Source of the DNA: Clytia hemisphaerica | Lineage: Eukaryota > Cnidaria > Hydrozoa > Leptothecata > Clytiidae | Direction: 5' to 3' | NCBI GenBank assembly: GCA_902728285.1 | Contig: CACVBU010001154.1 | Span: 877,164 to 941,163 of the forward strand | DNA length: 64,000 nucleotides | In this document: positions 43,501 to 55,101 of the stretch, one piece after another | Layout of the letters: each line of letters opens with the position of its first letter | Numbering within the stretch: the stretch's first letter is position 1 | Translations under genes and position numbers: made by a program | The notes under the pieces: model-generated | Databases searched by the model: none | Told to the model about the DNA's origin: nothing | What the model saw: the letters and a program-made list of their open reading frames with translations, nothing else

Positions 43501-46500
43501 GTTCCTTTTGAAGATTTTTTAAACCGGACACAGGTTTTTTCCAAACATACTACTATTACATACACACTATCGTACCATTTTATTTTATTTATCCTAGTCT
43601 CCTCCAAGCAAGTATTATCCCGACAGAATAATGCTTAGCTAAAAGCCGTGGCCTCTAATTTAGGCTATTTTTCTCCCGGTCCGGACAATCAAATCAACGC
43701 GCATCATGGCTTGGCTGTTGGCTAGTTTAAAAAAATATAAAAACTTGGAAATATTTGATTTCTAAACGTTTATCTCCTTTAGATCCAGTTTTGTACTTTT
43801 TAGTCGGGGATGAGTGGGGAGGGGGGTTGGGTTGGCACTTTAGGCAAGAAATTGCATGTGTAATCACTTAGAAGAGCTAAACGTCCAGCTGATTTATTTA
43901 TTCTTTAAGATTATTTCCCATACTCGCTCTAAAATAAAATTATTACTTTGCTTTCTGATTATTAGTTTGTGGGCAACATTCTAACACAACTCAACAAACT
44001 CATCCACTCATTTTTCACATCTTTTAATCTCTTAAGCCGGAGCTTCCAGCGCAGCTGGTTTATTCTTATAAAAACAGAACACTCAAGGGGACAGAGATGG
44101 ATTTCTAGTATGAACAGTTTACAATAGAAAAGACAAAGAAGCAATCCGCTAAGGAATTCTCGTCCTTCATCCAGCTCCGCTATAACATATCCCTGCTCGG
44201 AGGTCCTTTAATTTAACCTTTGTTCGTCCGTCCGTCCGTCTGCTCGTTCGTTCGTCTGTTTCCAGCTTTTCTCGGGATTGGCTCATTAGTTTTTTCTGAT
44301 TTTTTGTACAGTGATGCAAAATGGGGATTCCCAAAAAGTGACGGAGCCCGATTTTCGAAAGAAGTTTTTTTTTTGGGCAAATTTGGGCCAAAAACTGCCT
44401 AAAAATAGGGTTTTTTGGACTTAATTTTTTCTGATTTTTTGCATGAAGATAAAGGGCAACGTTCTCTATTTGGGGAAATTCCCTTTTGTCATTTTTAGGG
44501 AAAATGAGCATTTCTCGCGATTGCCTTACACCAGAGGAATGTAATGAGATGGAAAAACAGCTTTTCTGATTACTCAAAGTTCAATTGAAAATTCTATTGT
44601 AAAAACGTTGATTAGGTCATTATATGAAAGTCCAGAAAAGACGGCTCGCCATGCAAATCGGACAGTTTCTACATGATTTGACGATAAAAATGAAAATTTG
44701 TTTTTCCTTTTTTGCCGATTACTAGTTCAATTTTTAAGAATAAGGAGCAATATTTTTACCAATGTATAACAAAAGAAATTCTTAACGCAATGATATTAAA
44801 TTGGTTCTTGTAAAACTGTCAGAAGTCGAGTGAAATCAAGATGAAGTTATAATTTTCTCGAGCTCTAGCTCTCCATATAATGGTGCGGTTATATCAGTAG
44901 AATCGCTAGGAAATTCTGAGCAAGAAGATATAGGTACCTTTTCGTATAGGAGAGGTGTACACAAAATATAAGCCCTAAAAGTTTGCGCATAATCAGGCTT
45001 GAAACAAAAGAATTCGGTCACAACACGCTAATTATGCAGATTTACTATTTACTATTACCTATTTACTCGACATAAACTCCCAAGGGCAAGAGACCTGGTA
45101 TATGACGAGCCGTTTTTCCATTGTTTTCAGGAAGCTGTTTTCCATCTCTTTGCATTCTGCTTACTGTGTAAATTGTAATTCTCAAAATGTATGATTTTAT
45201 CTTTAAAGAGCTAGACCGGTTTTGGGCGGTTGGGAAAAATGGGTCTCCGTTAGCCGCCCACGGATCTCAAATTCGGAATCAGCGTGAAAAATTAATTTAA
45301 AAAAGATGGTTAAACTCCATCAGTCCAACGTAGGGTCGCAAAACACCAAAATCGAAAATTCAGTCCCTCGAAGGGTACATTTTTGGAGAGTTTTGGAAAA
45401 AAATAGAAGATTTTGGGAAAGTTTGCGAGTTTTAGTTCCACCATTCAGGGTTACTTTTTTCGAAAAAACGAGTCCCACTTAGGGTCCATTTTTCGAACTT
45501 CAGCGGCACACCCCTGTCAGTCGGCAAGGGTTTTGAAGTGAAGATGGGTCTTGTATTTTCAAAGGAAAATGTTATGGAATGTTTATGTATCTGTCTGTTG
45601 ATCTGTGCGTATGTCACAAATACTTTGGGAATCCTGGAGGCTTTAAAATTTGGCACATTAGGGTAAATAAATATGGGTTTAATTTGTCAACAATTTAGAT
45701 TTAAGATTATATTTCAATTTGTCTTCTGAAGAGCTTTAGGTCAAAATGAGGCTAAATATTCGGGCAGCCTAGAGCCTAAAGATATATGATCGGCTGAAAT
45801 TGGGCACATCTGTTTAGTTTTTCAAAGACAATTTTGCCTTCTACTTCAAATTAGAAACTGGATCTTGTATTTTTAAAAGCAAAAGTTAAGTACCTTATTG
45901 GCGTTATTTTTAAATGGGCCAAGACTTTGCAATTTTAAACTAAAAGCAGCGTTAATTTTTTATCATTACTTCTTAATTTAAAGGATTTTAGGTATGATTC
46001 GAAGACGAAAATTATCCATTTTATTTTTTATTTATTTATTTAACATTTATTCGACTTCAATTTTTACAAAATTGTTCTTCCGTCTAAACTAAGAATTATA
46101 AAAATGAAAATGCAAAAGATATAAATTATTAAATTATTAAATATAGTAAAATTTTTATATTGATTTAAAATGTAATTAAAGAATGCTAAAGACACAGGAC
46201 TGGCAAGAGATTGAATTAAGGATGAGATATAGGTATAGAGCTAGGCCTGCTGGAAGTCAAGAAAACATGGACGGTAAACAAAAGGCTGTAAGATTAATAA
46301 GTCAGTAAAGAAAAAAAAATATTTATACCGTAAAATACATAAATAATTAAAGTAACAAAAATATTTATAATGCTAATTATAATCACAGGGATAAAACCCT
46401 GGCTAATGCTTTATCAAAATAATATTTTTTAGCTTCTTTATTAAATTCTTCTAGAGTCTTTAAAGATTTTATGTTTTCTGGCAGATCATCATACCAACGA

Positions 46501-49500
46501 GCTTGACATTGAAATGTACCATCATTAACAACTTTGATCAATGGTTCTTTGAGTGTACAGCGAAGCTTCTTACTAGGGTTAGAGAATTCGACATTTAGAT
46601 AACTGGGATGATTTTTATCTCGACGTGACTTGTGAACAATTTTAGCGGTGTTAAGTTCGATGTACTCTTTGACTGGTAGCCACTTTAGTTGAATTACGTC
46701 ATTTAAAGTAGCGAATCGAGAAAGCGTACCCAGCTGCAATGTTTTGGATCTTTTGAAGACGTTCTACTTGGTACTTTGGAATTTGCGCATAGACAACATT
46801 GCTGTAGTTAAGCTTGGATAATATCATCGTTTCAGCCAGAGTCTTGCGAACATGAAATGGAGTAAAGCGACTGAATTTTCGTAGTGCTCGTAATGTTCCT
46901 TGAGAGGATTTGATGATTTCGTTGATATGTGTTGACCATGTTAAGTTATGATCAAGATAGACACCAAGCAATTTAACGTAGGTTTTGTGCTCGATTGATC
47001 GGCCAGAGCAGCGGAATAGTTGGCTTTGATTTTTTGGAAAATTCCTCAAGCGTTGAGAATGAAAAATGATGAGTTGTAGTTTGTCACTATTAAATAGTAG
47101 GTTACTGTCTTTTGACCACGACTGAAGGTTCTCAACATCCTTCTCCATATCCTTGATGGTTTCCTGCAAGTCCTTGAGTTTACAGTGACGGTAAAGGGTG
47201 GTATCGTCAGCGTATTGAATACTGGATGATGTTACTTGATCTGAAAGCTCGACGACATAAAGGTTGAATAACACAGGGCCTAATATACTACCCTTGGGAA
47301 ACTCCAAAATACATAGGTTTTAATGAAGAGGTTTTATCCTCAACCTGTACATACTGTCTCCTCTCCAATAAATAGCTCGATAGGATTTGTAGAGAATCAG
47401 AAGAAAAATTCATATCTCGAAGTTTCAACAAGAGATTAAGATGGTCTATTGTGTCAAAGGCTTTGGAGTAATCAATTAGAATGGAAAGAGTTACTTCACT
47501 TTTGCTCATTGCTTTCTTGATGTCATCTCGAAGCTTGATCAGTAAGGTACTTGTAGAATGTCCTTTACGAAACCCGGACTGCGTTTGACGATAGAGAGAT
47601 TTATCTTCAATAAATTTACAGAGCTGATGCAAGATAACTCGTTCAAAGACTTTCGAGAGCACAGGGAGTACCGATATTGGGCGATAGTCTTTGATTTTGA
47701 TAGGTAGGTCGATTTCGGAATAGGGCATACCGCGAGCAATTTTCCATTCCATTGTCGAGGGAAGATTTTCTTGTCAATGCAGTTATTGATGATATTGACA
47801 AGTGGCGATGTGATGAATTCCGATATCGGTTTTACAAAACGAATAGAGATATTATCAGAGCCGCAAGAACAGTCATTTTTCAGGCTCTTTAAGATCTGAC
47901 ATACTTCATCATAAGTAAACATGATGAATTTTAAACGCGTTTTTCGTCATCTATCGTTTCGATATTATCTGGTAATGTTGATTCTTCGTTAGGTTTGCCG
48001 GTGAGTTCAGATGCTAATTTGCAATAGTAATCATTCATCTCGGATGGATGGTGCTTAATTCGGGATTTTTGATTATCCAAAACTCGATGTATTGTACTCC
48101 AAACGGCTTTTGGATCCCTCGAAGATAGGGATTTTCTGAAAAGTTATTTTGATTTCTTTCAGTCTCTTTTTGTACTTTTTTGAGGTTTTCTTTGTAGGTG
48201 GTTTTTGTCTTGTGGGTTCAACTTAGCCTGTTGACGAGAAAGTTCAAGTTGAGCTCGACAGTTTTTGATAGCTGGGTCCCTCATCCATGGCGCGATGGGG
48301 CGGGTCAGCTTCACACGTTTCAGCGGAGCATGATTTTCGATGCATTCGAGGATTAGATAGTTGAGGATATCGATTTGGTCTTCTGGATTGTCGAAAGCAT
48401 AAATGGTGTTAAAGGGTGCTTGTGCTACATCATTGACATATGAGTTCATATTGAGATTTTTGTCATCACGAAGAAACTTGTAGCGAGGTTGGAATCGTTC
48501 CTTTTTAATATTCAGCAAGATGTAGGGGGTATTATGGTCACTTATCTCGTCGGTGGGCATGACATTGCTGTGGGTGACTTTGTTAGGAATATTGGTTATA
48601 ATATGATCTATTAAAGTTTTATCAAGTCGTGTTGGTTTTGAGATATGCTGATAGAGGTTGTATGAGGTAAGTATTTCTTTGTAACGAGTTGTCGATTCTT
48701 TTTCTTGACCGATAAGATCAATGTTCATATCACCGGTCAGAATGATAACGCCATTCCATTTCGTGCAAATTTCAGCAATGGCGGTTTCAAATAAGTCTAA
48801 CCAATGAAGCTTTTCTTTTTCCTTGAAGTTCGGTTGGTAAACGGTGACAACGAGATAAGGTGTGTTTTTGTTTCGGCCTCGGAATTCGGCAGCCAGAATT
48901 TCAAGGGATGAGTTTTTCGTTAAGTCCTTGCGCGGTTGAAAATGATGATAGTATTTTGCGTAAAGACCAACTCCACCACCTCGTGTTTTCGGTGCTTGAA
49001 AATGGGTACATAACCAGCAATTTCAACATATTTCGCTTGCTCCTTGTTGTCCTGAAGCCAAGTTTCGTTGAGGGTAATAATGTCGAATTGTAGGTCCGTC
49101 AACATAGAAGAAAATTCAGTGAACGTTGAAAGAAGTGATTGAGTGTTTAAGTGTGCGATGGAGGTTAGATTTCGATTATCGTTTAATAAATTTAAATGAG
49201 GATTTTCGATTATCAGTTCATCGATCGGAAGACTGTCATTCAGATCTCGTAGACTAAAAAATGGAAAGACGGACATGATACATCCCTGACATGTCCATTC
49301 CACGACGTTTCGAGATGTCATACGGTTTTGTTCATATTTTGAGAGTTTCGAACATGATGCATGGGTTAGACACAGACATTTGGTACAATGTAGGCGCTTG
49401 CGATTTGTTCCAACTCCTTTATCACACTCTGTGCATTTTGGTGCTGGTCCCGGATTGAGCTCGATATCACCAGATAATACAAGATTAAAAGTTGCATCAG

Positions 49501-50430
49501 AGTTCGAGTAATAACTGACAGGCGATTTCATTCTCTTGATTTTCGATGGGATGTGTTTACAAAAGGTTTCATTCTTTGTAACAGCAGCGTAATCAATTAT
49601 CGAAGTGTGGACGAATGCATTAAGTGTAATTAAAGTCATTAAAACAATTAAGCGATTCATCTCGAAAAATAAAAAATGTTCAACTTTTTTCCGATCTGAT
49701 GTATAAGAAAAAAGTGTTTGTTGTGTGAGAAAAAAAATGGCCCAACTTCGATTTGAGTGTCAAATTTAAACAGTTCTATTTATCTTTATCAGGATTCCCA
49801 TAAGTTGATCTCGATTTTTAGGTTGAAATATGTTTGAACAAACATGTACTATTAGTCCCTCAGTACTTGCTCAAAACTATCACTCTTTGAAATTTCTTCT
49901 GGGCAGATATAAAAGCGATCCAGCAGTAAAACAAACTCTCAAATCAAGAAAACAACAAATCCAGATAATCTTCAAATTAGTATTATGTATATTTTATATA
50001 TTATGTATATTTTTTACTCCATATTTAAAACTTCAGTCAATTATTTGATATTTTTAAAAATAACTGATTTTCGATGGAATTTTCAACAGTTTACTACTGA
50101 AAAATGACATTTTAATGTCATTATTTAGTCATTATTTACTAAATTGAAGCATAAATAGCCATTTTTTCCAATAAGGTAACATGCTAGTTTATTTATACAT
50201 GCTAGGAAATGTTTTTTTCTTCTCGTCAGGTCATCCCATTCACAAAAGAGACATCCATAACAAACAGCTACCATTTTAATGACGTATTCAATGACACAGC
50301 AATCCATGTTTTTCCTGATGATCTCCTCCGCAAAGCTGATTCTTCATTCTGGGAGAATGTCAAAGAACCAGAATCGAATCATGAGGATGTTGAAATTATT
50401 TCAAAAAAGGAGGAGGGTTTTACGGAATAA
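28993..50430 (+). CDS. SRRD: SRR1-like protein (SRRD), seven exons
   Basis: Exons: 28993-29141, 30823-30863, 31117-31253, 31655-31744, 32774-32919, 34884-34929, 50230-50430. They sum to 810 nt, i.e. 269 residues plus stop, and all junction phases agree (2, 1, 0, 0, 2, 0) with AG and GT at each boundary. The N-terminus is basic (EFQVVTRKNKKNWKK), as in animal SRRD proteins. The SRR1 domain follows: LYGIGS, QHQLSLVLL, YYDPVLNDQE, TLFVMFHCG with MYNNLLWANW, VVIGNAF, and near the C-terminus FNDVFNDTAIHVFP with a following FWE. The SRR1 family is known from Arabidopsis circadian and red-light signalling and is conserved in fungi and animals; its biochemical activity is poorly defined. The last intron is about 15.3 kb and carries an antisense gene and a LINE. 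An extra small exon in that intron cannot be excluded, but the protein reads through without a gap. Confidence 0.88.
29153..29306. mobile_element. Hairpin MITE 12 bp after SRRD exon 1
   Basis: Arms TCATGATATGCACCATTGCA and its near complement, ending ATGTATACCATGA, are paired almost to the centre (AAATCTGTCAATACGTCAC). The same family is at 52105-52705. The insertion leaves the donor GTATCT at 29142 intact. Confidence 0.85.
30027..30605. mobile_element. MITE with CCATACAGGGGGGG ends
   Basis: Left end ...ACCATACAGGGGGGGGGG, right end CCCCCACCCTGTATGGATAT, in SRRD intron 1. It is interrupted by a hairpin at 30288-30424. A fragment of its left end (CATACAAGGGGGTGGACGAA) also occurs at about 32270-32320. 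Confidence 0.65.
30288..30424. mobile_element. Hairpin MITE nested in the preceding element
   Basis: AGTGAGGTTAAGTATACCGG and ACGACGACGGACGAAAA at the left are mirrored by TTTTCGTTCGTCGTCGTGAT and TTACTTAACCTCACT at the right. About 137 bp. Confidence 0.8.
31752..32011. mobile_element. MITE, ACACGTCTTTTTT...AAGAAAC subfamily
   Basis: Starts ACACGTC plus a T run and AAGAAAC, ends GTTTCTTAAAAAAAAAGACGT. AAGAAACATG repeats inside. It begins 8 bp after the exon 4 donor of SRRD. The termini resemble the ACACG...TTATAAGAA group. Confidence 0.75.
32047..32630. mobile_element. Foldback element, about 580 bp
   Basis: Arms of roughly 190 bp: AGCGAGTTTATGTA, GAGGACGGTAAAG and GACGACGGTAAATCAG motifs are mirrored at both sides. 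The loop carries a fragment of the CCATACAGGGGG family plus a TATACCGGGTTATCC segment. In SRRD intron 4, ending about 140 bp before exon 5. Confidence 0.8.
32920..34883. other. SRRD intron 5, no further gene
   Basis: AT-rich. GTGCAATTAACGATTAATC occurs twice (about 33510 and 33841). A G+T-rich patch lies at 34640-34710. No coding block supported. Confidence 0.4.
34974..35126. mobile_element. Mariner-like MITE, TA-flanked
   Basis: Left end TACAGTGGAGTCTTTTACGC with CTCTATAACTCGAAC, right end GAGTTATGGACACTCAACTGTA. The CAGT ends and flanking TA fit the Tc1/mariner superfamily. It starts 44 bp after SRRD exon 6. Confidence 0.65.
35150..35600. repeat. Probable degenerate element with GGTACC / GGCACATACC ends
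   Basis: The segment GGCGGCACATACCTGTACCC and the ACCCTCAGTTGAAC interior resemble parts of 6335-6665 and 61532-61860. The boundaries are not resolved. Confidence 0.3.
35701..35894. mobile_element. MITE with TTACTCTTAAGGTTCC ends, copy 1
   Basis: TTACTCTTAAGGTTCCAAAT at the left and ATTTGGAACCTAAAAGTA at the right, with C-rich AACCCCCC modules between. The layout resembles family A, with different termini. Confidence 0.75.
36060..36390. mobile_element. Uninterrupted relative of the 4405-5736 MITE
   Basis: In reverse orientation it matches the outer parts of 4405-5736 (GTGAATTTCACACATTTGAT, TGTATTTGGTTAACAGAAAA, AGATAAATTGAAGC, TAAGAATACGTTAAGAATAT, ending AAAAAAGCGTGT). Neither the 680-bp hairpin nor the GTCCGACAC element is present, so it preserves the empty sites. 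Confidence 0.75.
36439..36481 (+). repeat. Poly-C tract of about 43 bases
   Basis: A continuous C run after AATCCCCA. A tract this long is prone to length error in sequencing and assembly. Confidence 0.95.
37032..37369. mobile_element. MITE with TACCTTAAGGGAACTA ends, copy 1
   Basis: TACCTTAAGGGAACTAATTT at the left, AATAGTTCCCTTAAGGTA at the right. Repeats of CGCAAAATTAAGTTCCC inside. Same termini at 56292-56577, and related ends at 52220-52677. Confidence 0.85.
37501..37563 (+). repeat. (AAAT)n microsatellite
   Basis: About fifteen TAAA units with one or two substitutions. Confidence 0.95.
37801..37859 (+). repeat. 19-bp tandem repeat, three units
   Basis: TTAAGCTTTCTGTCTGTCG starts at 37801, 37820 and 37839. 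It abuts the MITE that begins at 37860. Confidence 0.95.
37860..38112. mobile_element. MITE, ACACG...TTATAAGAAC group, copy 1
   Basis: Starts ACACGTTTTCTTTATAAGAA, ends GTTCTTATAAAAAAACATGT. The interior (AGCTTCGATGGCC, CAAAAATTTTGGATGTTC) is colinear with 40120-40377. Confidence 0.85.
38291..38552. mobile_element. MITE with TTACTCTTAGGTTCC ends, copy 2
   Basis: TTACTCTTAGGTTCCAAATA at the left, TATTTGGAACCTAAGAGTAA at the right; same family as 35701-35894. It ends 13 bp before the stop codon of the antisense gene. Confidence 0.85.
38565..40068 (-). CDS. Antisense three-exon gene of unknown function
   Basis: On the minus strand: exon 1 40068-39984 (ATG start), exon 2 39651-39555, exon 3 39108-38565 (stop). 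Junction phases agree (1 then 2), and the total of 726 nt encodes 241 residues. The donor of exon 2 is GTAAGT and the acceptor of exon 3 is TTTTTCAG; the donor of exon 1 (GTGACG) and the acceptor of exon 2 (ACTATAG) are weaker. The product is soluble-looking with no signal peptide: KLKSVLIFVLNTEG, KKGWRSDEPLEYVSGKTYSW, an acidic stretch (EDKCDDPNYKEFDEE), a SSSCFSCLG motif that could be lipid-modified, and GLEGLHGLICAEKHV near the C-terminus. I do not recognise the family. It lies inside the last SRRD intron, opposite in strand. Exon 3 is the firmest part; the first two exons rest on phase compatibility and coding look. Confidence 0.6.
39337..39508. mobile_element. C-run / ACGCAA repeat ending CGCTTGGGGCC, copy 1
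   Basis: A run of about 14 C is followed by many TTCACGCAA motifs and ends AAACCGCTTGGGGCCATAC. The relative at 50909-51132 has a C run, ATCACG motifs and the same AACCGCTTGGGGCC end. It lies in intron 2 of the antisense gene. Confidence 0.65.
40120..40377. mobile_element. MITE, ACACG...TTATAAGAAC group, copy 2
   Basis: Starts ACATTCTTTTTATATAAGAA, ends GTTCTTATAAAAAAGAAACG; colinear with 37860-38112. It starts about 50 bp upstream of the start codon of the antisense gene. Confidence 0.8.
40489..40698. mobile_element. MITE, ACACTCTTTTTATT...TTATAAGA group, copy 3
   Basis: Starts ACACTCTTTTTATTTTATAA, ends GGTTCTTATAAAAAAGAGTG. Its interior differs from copies 1 and 2. Confidence 0.75.
41011..41286. 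mobile_element. MITE, ACACGCTTTTTTTTAAGAAT group, copy 4
   Basis: Starts ACACGCTTTTTTTTAAGAAT, ends TATTCTTATAAAAAAGTGTG. AATATTCTTA repeats inside. A further end-like fragment (ATTCTTATAAAAAAGAAAAC) lies at about 41600-41625. Confidence 0.75.
41759..44206. mobile_element. 2.4-kb TIR element with internal tandem repeat
   Basis: A terminal inverted repeat of about 38 bp: GGACCTACCTCGGAGCAGGG then ATATGTTATAGCGGAGCTGG at the left, and the complement (CCAGCTCCGCTATAACATAT then CCCTGCTCGGAGGTCC) at the right. No transposase frame is visible; about 1 kb of the interior is a degenerate tandem repeat. Non-autonomous DNA transposon inside the SRRD intron. Confidence 0.85.
42850..43560. repeat. Degenerate tandem repeat, about 180-200 bp unit
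   Basis: GAAAATGATC-TTTTGGACTTTGT recurs at about 42882, 43072, 43274 and 43451, each followed by GGCGACCGTTCCTTT and ACATACTACTGT-like blocks. Unit spacing is about 190, 202 and 177 bp. A weaker unit may start near 42570. Confidence 0.8.
44245..44480. repeat. Partial repeat of family X
   Basis: TTAGTTTTTTCTGATTTTTTG..., GTGATGCAAAATGGGGATTC and GCCCGATTTTCGAAA match modules of 17390-18300 and 20165-20790. It starts directly after a TCCGTCCGTCCG/TTCGTTCG tract. The 136-codon minus frame across it is a by-product. Confidence 0.55.
44481..45579. other. SRRD intron 6, no feature supported
   Basis: AT-rich DNA with short frames only. A GGGTCC/GGGTTACT-type block at 45320-45500 may be repeat-derived. 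Confidence 0.35.
45580..45900 (-). repeat. Divergent copies of the 156-bp repeat
   Basis: On the minus strand the order TGTGCC...AAATTT, AAAGCCTCCAGGATTCCCAA, GTGACATACGCACAGATCAA follows the 156-bp family (TGTGCCAAATTTCAGCC, CTCCAGGCTGCCCCAAAG, GGGACATACACACAGAC). A second diverged unit with CTAGGCTGCCC lies near 45755-45815. Confidence 0.55.
46383..46739 (-). pseudogene. LINE ORF, C-terminal tail after RT
   Basis: A 118-codon block, ending in the stop at 46383, that continues the RT reading after a frame change. It has the typical LINE tail segment WLPVKEYIELNTAKIVHK and ARWYDDLPENIKSLKTLEEF, as in many CR1/L2 elements. Confidence 0.75.
46699..47922 (-). pseudogene. LINE reverse transcriptase domain
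   Basis: The RT blocks appear in order across three frames: YRPISVLPVLSKVFE, SGFRKGHST, IDYSKAFDTIDH, SQGSILGPVLFN, YADDTTLY (catalytic aspartates intact) and LLGVYLDHNLTWSTHI. Frame changes near 47750-47540 and 47300 break it. It copies element RNA by target-primed reverse transcription in intact relatives. Confidence 0.88.
48159..48990 (-). pseudogene. LINE APE-type endonuclease domain
   Basis: The first part lies at the end of the 48920-49660 frame (HLNTQSL, LNETWL). After a frame change near 48985 it continues with RGGGVGLYAK, then LTGDMNID, TLIDHI and ISDHN, the usual metal-binding and catalytic blocks of AP-endonuclease-like LINE enzymes. Confidence 0.82.
48920..49660 (-). pseudogene. 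LINE N-terminus: signal-like segment, 2A-like motif, PHD finger
   Basis: Starts at the ATG at 49660. Residues 1-20 are hydrophobic and signal-peptide-like. Residues 61-72 read VLSGDIELNPGP, a 2A-like ribosome-skipping motif (DxExNPGP core at 49445-49468). Residues 76-127 form a C4HC3 PHD-type zinc finger: Cys76, 79, 92, 95, His100, Cys103, 124, 127, with Trp122 in the usual position. The start of the endonuclease follows. If the 2A works, translation would release a 71-residue N-terminal peptide. 2A-like motifs at this position are known in non-LTR elements of other invertebrates. Confidence 0.85.
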
Positions 50431-50572: not shown

Positions 50573-50666
50573 CCAGCTGGCACACAACGTTGTTTTAAGG
50601 TTCATCTAACGTTATATGGACGTTGTGAACGTTAGATAAACGTTAAAAGAACGTTGTGTGCCAGCC
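50573..50666. mobile_element. 100-bp AACGTT hairpin MITE, copy 1
   Basis: CCAGCTGGCACACAACGTTG at the left, AACGTTGTGTGCCAGC at the right, and GAACGTTAGATAAACGTT within. It lies 140 bp after the SRRD stop. Sister copy at 51521-51620. Confidence 0.85.
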
Positions 50667-51132: not shown

Positions 51133-52104
51133 CTCTAAAGGGAGTATTATAAAGGCAGAATTGTTTCGCATAATTTTCCTTGACCGTAAAGGTCTGAAAA
51201 ATGGAAGCACAAATGGAGAATGCCTACAATTAGTTGAAGTCATTGTAAATTACTTCATTATTTTAATTAACCTAAAAATTCACGAGAGTTTTTTGTCGTG
51301 GAAACTTTGCTGTTTTTGTCCTTAAAATCATTGTTTTTTGAAGAATTCGGGAATTTAATCCGGGATATAATCAAGGCTTTTTAGAAAGTAACAATAAAAA
51401 ACGTTCAGACTGGAGTGGCGAGGGGCTTATTTTTAGTTCGAATTACAAAAAGATTAAATTATAGTCCACACCACACCTTGGTGTTGAAAAAGGTTTGACA
51501 CTGTTTTTGAGTTCCAACATACCCAGCTGGCACACAACGTTGTTTCAACGTTGATCTAACGTTATATGGACGTTGTGAACGTTAGATAAATGTTGAAAAA
51601 ACGTTGTGTGCCAGCTGGGTATCTATATTTTGAGATTCAGGATGGTTTCTGGGCTAACTAGGTGGCAACCTTGCAGGGTAGGGGGTAGAAGGGGGGTAGG
51701 TAGAAGAAATTTCAATGGAACCTGACTCCTGGGGTAGGTCACCAATATTGTTAATTTCTTCAAAACTACTAATGATATAGTAATGAAATTTCGTACAGAG
51801 GTTACAAAGGTATCAGATATTATTTCTACAAATTTTTAGGCCGTTTATAATAAAATGTGTATTTTACAGACCATTCAATATTTTATTATATTAAAAAAAA
51901 CAATTATTTTTCCTCGGGTATCGCTTATTTTTGTCCTATGTATTTCTTAAACCATTAGTATTAGTCTTCAGATATTTCATATAACAGTAAAATATGACTC
52001 ACTGAAAGCATTTTTACAAGCTTTCAGGACGGCTACAAAAACTATTGTCTATTTTACGGACCAGAATCTGGAAAAAATTCCCCAAATTATATTTTTTATT
52101 TAAT
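51133..52104. other. Intergenic, no gene seen
   Basis: Contains the MITE at 51521-51620. The rest is AT-rich with short frames only. Confidence 0.4.
51521..51620. mobile_element. 100-bp AACGTT hairpin MITE, copy 2
   Basis: ACCCAGCTGGCACACAACGT at the left and ACGTTGTGTGCCAGCTGGGT at the right are exact complements. The centre is TCTAACGTTATATGGACGTT. Better preserved than copy 1. Confidence 0.9.
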
Positions 52105-52705: not shown

Positions 52706-53340
52706 ATAAAGTGGCAATTTGAAAAAAGTTGGCAGTATTTTTCAAATAATAGCTATACCAGCCCAATGAAAGAGATGGCATCTTGTTTGCTGAGGACGGA
52801 GAGTCTAGCTTATTGTGTATTTTACAGACCAGAATACTCAAACCTAAAACTTGACAGCGAATAACATAAAAATGAATTTAGAATTTACGTAAGTACTGTA
52901 ATGTAAAAATTAAGGAATGTTTGACGTTATTGTTCAATTCATTGAAAAACTTTTTTCAACACAATTATTGCTGTCTTTGTCACTTTCTTCGTCGTCAGAT
53001 TCTACATCACTTTCTGCTTCTCCATACTCCTCGTCATTCTTCACTTTCACCACTGTCGCTCTTTCTCCGTCACTAGCAGGCTGTGTCTTCAATCCATTCT
53101 ATCTCACCATCAAAGTTCCAACCATGTCCTGCTGAATAAAGGCCAACGTAGGCAACGTAATTTGCCCCTTTTGAGCTTTAAGAGATAGAGTTGACCTGCT
53201 GTCCCTTATAATTTTGATTTACCTGTTTCGCCCGACCTAGAAAATGCTATGTGTTGTTTACTGATTACGTCTATATCTAAAAATTACCATCCGCTGTTTA
53301 CTGAAGATGATGTCCTCAATCAAGAAAATACGATCTGCTG

Positions 53341-54565: not shown

Positions 54566-55101
54566 CTACTCGATTTTTGGCTGAATACGGATTAGATAGT
54601 TTTTTATTAGGCCTAGCTGATGAAACCAAAGATTTGTTGGAAAACTAAATATGCAAGATATATGGATCTATCAAGAAAACCGTCAACGAGGATCGCTTTC
54701 AACTATTTGAAAGCAAACGCAGAAGAAAGGGATAACACTGTTGCCTACGTTGGCCTTCATTCAGCAGGACATGGTTGGGACTTTGATAGTGAGATAGAAT
54801 GGATCGGAGACACATACTGCTAGTGAGAGAGAAAGAGCGACAGTGGTGAAAGTGAAGAATGACGAGGAGTATGGAGGAGCAGAAAGTGATGTAGAATCTG
54901 ACGACGAAGAAAGTGACAAAGACAACAATAATTGTGTTGAAAAAAGTTTTTCAATGAATTGAACATAACGTCAAACATTCCTTAATTTTTACATTACAGT
55001 ACTGAATTTATTTTTATGTTATTCACTGTCAAGTTTTAGGTTTGAGTATACTGGTCTGTAAAATACACAATAAGCTCTTCGTCCTCAGCAAAAAGTGTAA
55101 T

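Follow-up and report, generated by a model that had tools for sequence, protein, structure and literature searches.

Why does a LINE of the hydrozoan Clytia hemisphaerica begin with a hydrophobic leader, a 2A-like motif and a PHD finger, all ahead of its endonuclease? An earlier note on this locus proposed that the 2A would split the product during translation and free a secreted or membrane-directed leader from the enzyme. We examined the locus in a stretch of 64,000 nucleotides (the window, from contig CACVBU010001154.1; positions are those of the window), and we searched the host genome (417 Mb, 951 contigs) for relatives. The better-preserved relatives encode the leader, the StopGo/2A, the PHD finger, the APE endonuclease and the reverse transcriptase (RT) in one frame. 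Our preferred reading, with a probability of roughly two in three, is that skipping would free an ER-directed leader of ~71 amino acids from a cytosolic or nuclear PHD-APE-RT enzyme. The parts of the copy in the window are:

46021..49977, minus strand: LINE copy, ~3.95 kb, from the limits of homology and a reading of the tail; the 3' boundary is approximate
49661..49977, minus strand: 5' UTR, 317 nt, from the 5' end of the element to the Met
49469..49660, minus strand: leader, 64 amino acids, translated from the Met at 49660
49445..49468, minus strand: StopGo/2A core DIELNPGP, residues 65-72 of the translation, with the skip expected at Gly71/Pro72
49280..49435, minus strand: C4HC3 PHD finger, from its ligands, a family profile and an AlphaFold model
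48983..49150, minus strand: start of the APE endonuclease, in the leader's frame (PF03372, residues 171-214, a weak match, E 0.081)
48159..49022, minus strand: remainder of the APE endonuclease, in another frame (PF14529, E 5e-4, under its cut-off)
47288..47773, minus strand: first part of the RT (PF00078, RVT_1, E 5.9e-16)
46699..47319, minus strand: second part of the RT, in another frame (PF00078, E 2.6e-9)
46383..46763, minus strand: post-RT region, with no match in Pfam

Translation of 49660..48920 (minus strand) gives P0001, which has 246 amino acids from the Met at 49660 and no stop except the terminal one. This bears out the three-part N-terminus described earlier: a hydrophobic leader, SGDIELNPGP and a C4HC3 PHD finger precede the APE endonuclease. 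The hydrophobic stretch is residues 4-15 (LIVLMTLITLNA), and the leader has one N-glycosylation sequon, at residue 30. The Met has a purine at -3 and two ATGs upstream. Close relatives of P0001 align only up to residue 225/226. The reading frame is disrupted near 48983 and once more further on, with the rest of APE and RT lying in other frames, so the window copy is dead, a state that is absent from the earlier note. APE and RT downstream place the element among the APE-type non-LTR retrotransposons, and by architecture alone it resembles CR1/L2; the window copy's own APE matches are under cut-off, and the relative L031 matches Exo_endo_phos with E 5.7e-13.

The 5' end of the copy is placed at 49977, where the homology of L010 (on contig C43) and of L015 and L025 to the window ends. 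L015 and L025 are both on C167, so this end is common to two other places in the genome; in L011, L017 and L020, the homology ends short of 49977. The left end is an A-rich tail of the AAAT type, read around 46021, and L026 matches the window at 78% over 46021-46157.

Elsewhere in the window, two similar short palindrome-like copies (GCTGGCACACAACGTT ... AACGTTGTGTGCC) lie at 50573-50662 and 51526-51616 and look MITE-like by eye. Near-identical translated stretches on opposite strands, at 52946-53188 (plus) and 54699-54950 (minus), may belong to a longer inverted repeat. The assembly also holds a 14.5 kb mitochondrial contig; by eye, its first 10 kb encode nad2, nad5, nad6, nad1, nad4, cob and cox1 on one strand (table 4).

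The finger was said to be a complete PHD, and all eight ligands are present (C76, C79, C92, C95, H100, C103, C124 and C127 of P0001). In a single-sequence Pfam search of the window ORF, PHD had an E value of 0.029 and FYVE a better one of 0.0035, both under cut-off. The FYVE assignment is overruled by the family profile and the structure model, both of which point to PHD. The family profile, built from 12 rows, matches PHD fingers whose structures have been solved, with Pygopus first (E 1.8e-6). The AlphaFold model of the region has a mean pLDDT of 78.5 (block means of 89-92 over residues 11-60), and its best Foldseek match is the Pygopus PHD (E 4.4e-3, probability 1.00), in a search with no match at E 0.001 or better. 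Given the C4HC3 ligands and the predicted fold, we identify the finger as a PHD. LINEs with an apparently single ORF are described in L2 subgroup 4 and CR1 subgroup 6; like the element in the window, they have an N-terminal PHD before APE-RT, and their PHD profiles also match the PHDs of Pygopus and MLL (Metcalfe and Casane 2014, PMC4120745).

The 2A-like motif is a canonical core, D(V/I)ExNPGP, in frame in the window ORF. By eye, the residues that precede its D, FNLVLSG, fit the L-rich upstream class ending in (A/S/C)G of a 2026 StopGo survey (PMC12846837, section 10). We searched the genome for the DNA form of the core, allowing V, I or M at the second position (p13), and for the reversed pattern as a control. 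With D first, there are 361 places versus 0 reversed; with any first residue (p12), there are 436 versus 2; and with W-S-N first codons, there are 40 versus 0. Gly at p12 does not explain the cores that the exact pattern misses, as it occurs at a single place in the genome (1 versus 0).

Could the 2A be inactive, leaving the ORF product as one membrane-anchored protein? We consider this very improbable, since cores so far outnumber the reversed controls (361 versus 0 and 436 versus 2) and since one lineage, discussed below, lacks the leader and the 2A jointly. What speaks for an inactive 2A is the S or T at p12 in some lineages, as alanine at this position abolishes F2A activity; but T at p12 was functional at 88.5% in its natural viral context (both from PMC12846837). 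The portion of that survey that we consulted names no variant with serine at p12. The PHD-LINE lineages with S or T instead of D (SVEVNPGP, SVELNPGP or TVEINPGP) are L086/L089, L087, L090 and L091. A hydrophobic leader was read in L086, L087 and L091, and a complete PHD in L089, L090 and L091; there are frames of 1117-1128 amino acids at C654, C585 and C419.

P0001 has at least 125 matches in the host genome at E <= 1e-5, with 150 of 462 candidates scored. The 2A is spanned by 89 of the 125: at least 62 have the canonical core, 13 have S, T or C first, and 14 have neither by exact pattern. Among the 73 that span the 2A without an internal stop, the corresponding numbers are 49, 12 and 12. These classes come from comparing the matches with sets of 76, 21 and 40 core positions and with further positions (6 D-first, 7 from a further set of 76, these being near P0001 matches, and two calculated from loci). 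The 62 is a lower bound because, for Leu and several more p15 codons, the positions extend to contig C250. The 14 with neither include L018, where NTGP takes the place of NPGP in a frame of 431 amino acids, and C94:1227642, which has the core with another residue at p12.

By the earlier note's own account, its proposal would be contradicted by intact relatives from which the core or leader is missing. Stop-to-stop frames of at least 1000 amino acids accompany 23 of the 125 matches; 12 of these are near a canonical core, 4 are near an S/T core, and 7 are near neither. One of the 12, on C43, has a stop after the PHD, so its long frame does not hold the leader. Among the 7, the homology on C450 starts within the core, the N-terminus is interrupted on C748 and C523, and the others are on C445, C827, C325 and C610. 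The objection holds in part: the C445 lineage has neither leader nor 2A.

Two further arrangements occur among the relatives. At C827:446525-447314, the APE part is on the minus strand and the leader-2A adjoins it on the plus strand, which is consistent with a 5' inversion. At C929:5306-16214, three copies of the F5 family described below (L030-L032) lie in the same direction ~5.17 kb apart (5306, 10478 and 15645), like a head-to-tail array.

On C445, an open frame of 1074 amino acids starts just before the PHD, without leader or 2A. After a stop, it reads KAATCLKSLYK-MAPRCPIC, and the PHD follows the Met. NPG is absent from all six frames of 1051 bases (L088) that extend 864 bases upstream of the frame. 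Over the 114 amino acids compared, C445 has 99% identity to the copy on C41 and 98% to that on C508. The PHD after this Met resembles the window PHD after the skip Pro (PAPKC), in keeping with a cut at the 2A. Also, because leader and 2A are both missing in this one case, the sequences suggest that they may be gained or lost as a whole unit. Three other frames of 1134, 1119 and 1118 amino acids (C66:93449, C137:272572 and C207:565060), known only as long frames that match the PHD query, have no (V/I/M)ExNPGP nearby among the core positions up to contig C229.

To compare the leaders, we grouped the relatives into families: F1, the window's own (L009-L011, L015), F2 (L012/L016), F3 (L018), F4 (L021/L024), F5 (L031/L027), F6 (L035/L038), F7 (L085/L063), F8 (L084/L078), F9 (L086) and F10 (L087). 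The earlier note had asked whether these parts are under purifying selection, and between two pairs of sister families the dN/dS of leader and PHD is 0.09-0.34 (saturated pairs were left out). For F1 versus F2, dN/dS is 0.24 for the leader (bootstrap 0.12-0.46) and 0.17 for the PHD (0.07-0.36). For F5 versus F6, it is 0.34 for the leader (0.15-0.83), 0.09 for the PHD and 0.04 for the downstream remainder. The PHD of F7/F7b has a dN/dS of 0.73, and L063 is broken there.

In the two sister pairs, leader dS is low (0.42 and 0.31, versus 0.93 and 1.51 for the PHD), and conservation of the 5' UTR adjoining the Met is close to that of the leader. This indicates that constraint on the DNA or exchange of 5' ends accounts for part of the leader's conservation. 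It also raises the question of whether the hydrophobicity is incidental: the 5' end might be conserved as DNA or RNA (an internal promoter or a 5' UTR element), with the leader only supplying the upstream residues of the 2A. We think this quite unlikely. Leader dN/dS is below 1, and hydrophobic N-termini recur in leaders whose first bases can no longer be aligned. For instance, F1 and F4 have 33% of their first 60 coding bases in common, which is about the level of unrelated sequences, and both leaders are hydrophobic. Also, the stretch and the skip are ~50 residues apart, whereas the 2A is said to be influenced by 30 amino acids (PMC2978324). In 19 of 21 rows, the leader's best 12-residue hydrophobic window is unmatched later in the same open frame (the later part had 10 to 650 windows, with the fewest in F9 and F10), and both of the remaining rows lack an in-frame Met. 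Hydrophobic residues are more clustered than in shuffled leaders, with p < 0.05, in 15 of the 21 rows, which are not independent of each other; the window family itself is marginal (p 0.05-0.09), which fits incidental hydrophobicity.

Returning to the proposal of a leader that would work as a signal and then be released, the lengths of the leaders count in its favor. Counted from the first in-frame Met, the chain to the skip Gly is 71, 71, 69, 67, 65, 65, 73, 84 and 84 residues in nine families, and L091, with a leader of 75 amino acids, has 82. The chain inside the ribosome plus the translocon is 65-70 amino acids (De Felipe et al., PMC2978324). The rule is not strict: F8 is an exception, with leaders of 266-281 amino acids in L084 and L078 (~270-290 to the skip Gly), and an earlier in-frame Met in L034, a member of F4, would give 82.

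We propose that the ribosome begins translation at the leader's Met and that, by the time it reaches Gly71, the hydrophobic N-terminus would already be outside the exit tunnel and able to engage SRP or the translocon. StopGo would then release a 71-residue leader peptide, directed to the ER or membrane if its signal works, and the same ribosome would continue from Pro72 to make a cytosolic PHD-APE-RT protein that could enter the nucleus. The PHD would perhaps read chromatin at the target. The mechanism is favored by the anatomy and the fact that it recurs, together with dN/dS values under 1, a lineage from which leader and 2A are jointly missing, and leaders of similar length in nine families. 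These features are what the sequences show; that skipping occurs, that the leader is a functional signal and what the freed leader would do are our inference. Against the mechanism are the report that 2A can be inhibited when an N-terminal signal directs translocation of the protein (PMC2978324), the lineage without leader and 2A, the leader length of F8 and the NTGP of F3.

If translocation does inhibit 2A, skipping might be incomplete, leaving some PHD-APE-RT fused to the leader and bound to the ER. Such dual targeting is reported for the N-terminal 2A signal sequences of sea-urchin NLRs, where a combined signal/2A of 26 amino acids stands on an immune receptor (Roulston et al. 2016, PMC4981915). 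Like those leaders, the LINE's N-terminus is signal-like and has a 2A that may cut it off; in the LINE, which is a transposon with a PHD to follow, the signal-like stretch is separate and lies ~50 amino acids before the core (residues 4-15 versus 65-72). The non-canonical first residue in 13 of the 89 matches that span the 2A would fit incomplete skipping, but at least 62 of the 89 have the canonical core, and a nuclease and RT would have no evident use in the ER lumen. We therefore view dual targeting as unlikely.

The core also occurs in other transposons. (We assigned classes by matching a regular expression to 75 frames from 75 loci, with L015/L025 and L017/L020 as overlapping pairs; 25 of the 75 are "other," a group that includes many broken members of the classes named.) L064 is a LINE without a PHD, with the core before APE-RT (Exo_endo_phos, 6.2e-10; RVT_1, 1.1e-30). 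In L065, the core precedes a herpes-tegument-like domain, DUF6570 and a Helitron domain (PF04843, 7.9e-10; PF14214, 2.9e-28), and the domains after the core of L042 are similar. In L044, a USP-type ubiquitin hydrolase (PF00443, 4.3e-28) and DUF6570 follow the core; L059 is placed with it by similarity. Tegument-like deubiquitinases are known in Helitrons and Helentrons (PMC9741609); that paper's main text contains neither "2A peptide" nor "NPGP," and nothing on target for Helitrons with a 2A was found in the open literature that we searched.

The leaders of the PHD-less LINEs and the Helitron-type elements have YRxxIGxF in common. We observed S[LI]xxYRxx[IV]GxF, a hydrophobic stretch and the core in the Helitron-type L065, L042 and L043 and in the PHD-less LINEs L004, L008, L064 and L067. 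Among hand-chosen leaders (4 by 6), 20 of 24 pairs score above shuffles at p < 0.05 and 4 do not; the best pair scores 66, versus a shuffle mean of 25.4. Kinship of the window-type leaders to this YR type was rejected: 39 of 40 pairs have p > 0.05, and one has 0.01. A tentative and broader idea, which we rate as possible but doubtful, is that leader plus StopGo forms a detachable front cassette in several transposon classes. In PHD-LINEs, its length would be tuned to the path through ribosome and translocon; PHD-less LINEs and Helitron/Helentron-like elements would have an analogous YR cassette; and some LINE lineages use S as the first residue of the core. Translation would dock at the ER and then be released, giving a cytosolic enzyme made at the membrane and a free membrane peptide.

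2A sequences are reportedly present in APE LINEs (the elements of Odon 2013), which would resemble the window LINE in having a D(V/I)ExNPGP core in an APE LINE. Leader, 2A and PHD are each known elsewhere, and their conserved combination is unusual. In the open literature that we searched, we found no paper on the combination, and nothing on target for PHD with 2A and retrotransposons; Odon 2013, which is outside that literature, may describe it. Neither "2A peptide" nor "signal peptide" occurs in the main text of PMC4120745.

Should the leader engage the ER, with StopGo then freeing the enzyme, translation of these LINEs would be coupled to the membrane in a programmed way, which would bear on the site of production and assembly of such elements. 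This one genome's natural variants (D, S or T at p12, unrelated leaders of similar length, and a lineage without both leader and 2A) offer a ready comparative test of the rules of StopGo, and of the coupling between signal and StopGo in an animal. And if PHD-less LINEs and Helitron-like elements do have a leader in common, this would mean that a module of translational control has been exchanged between classes of transposons.
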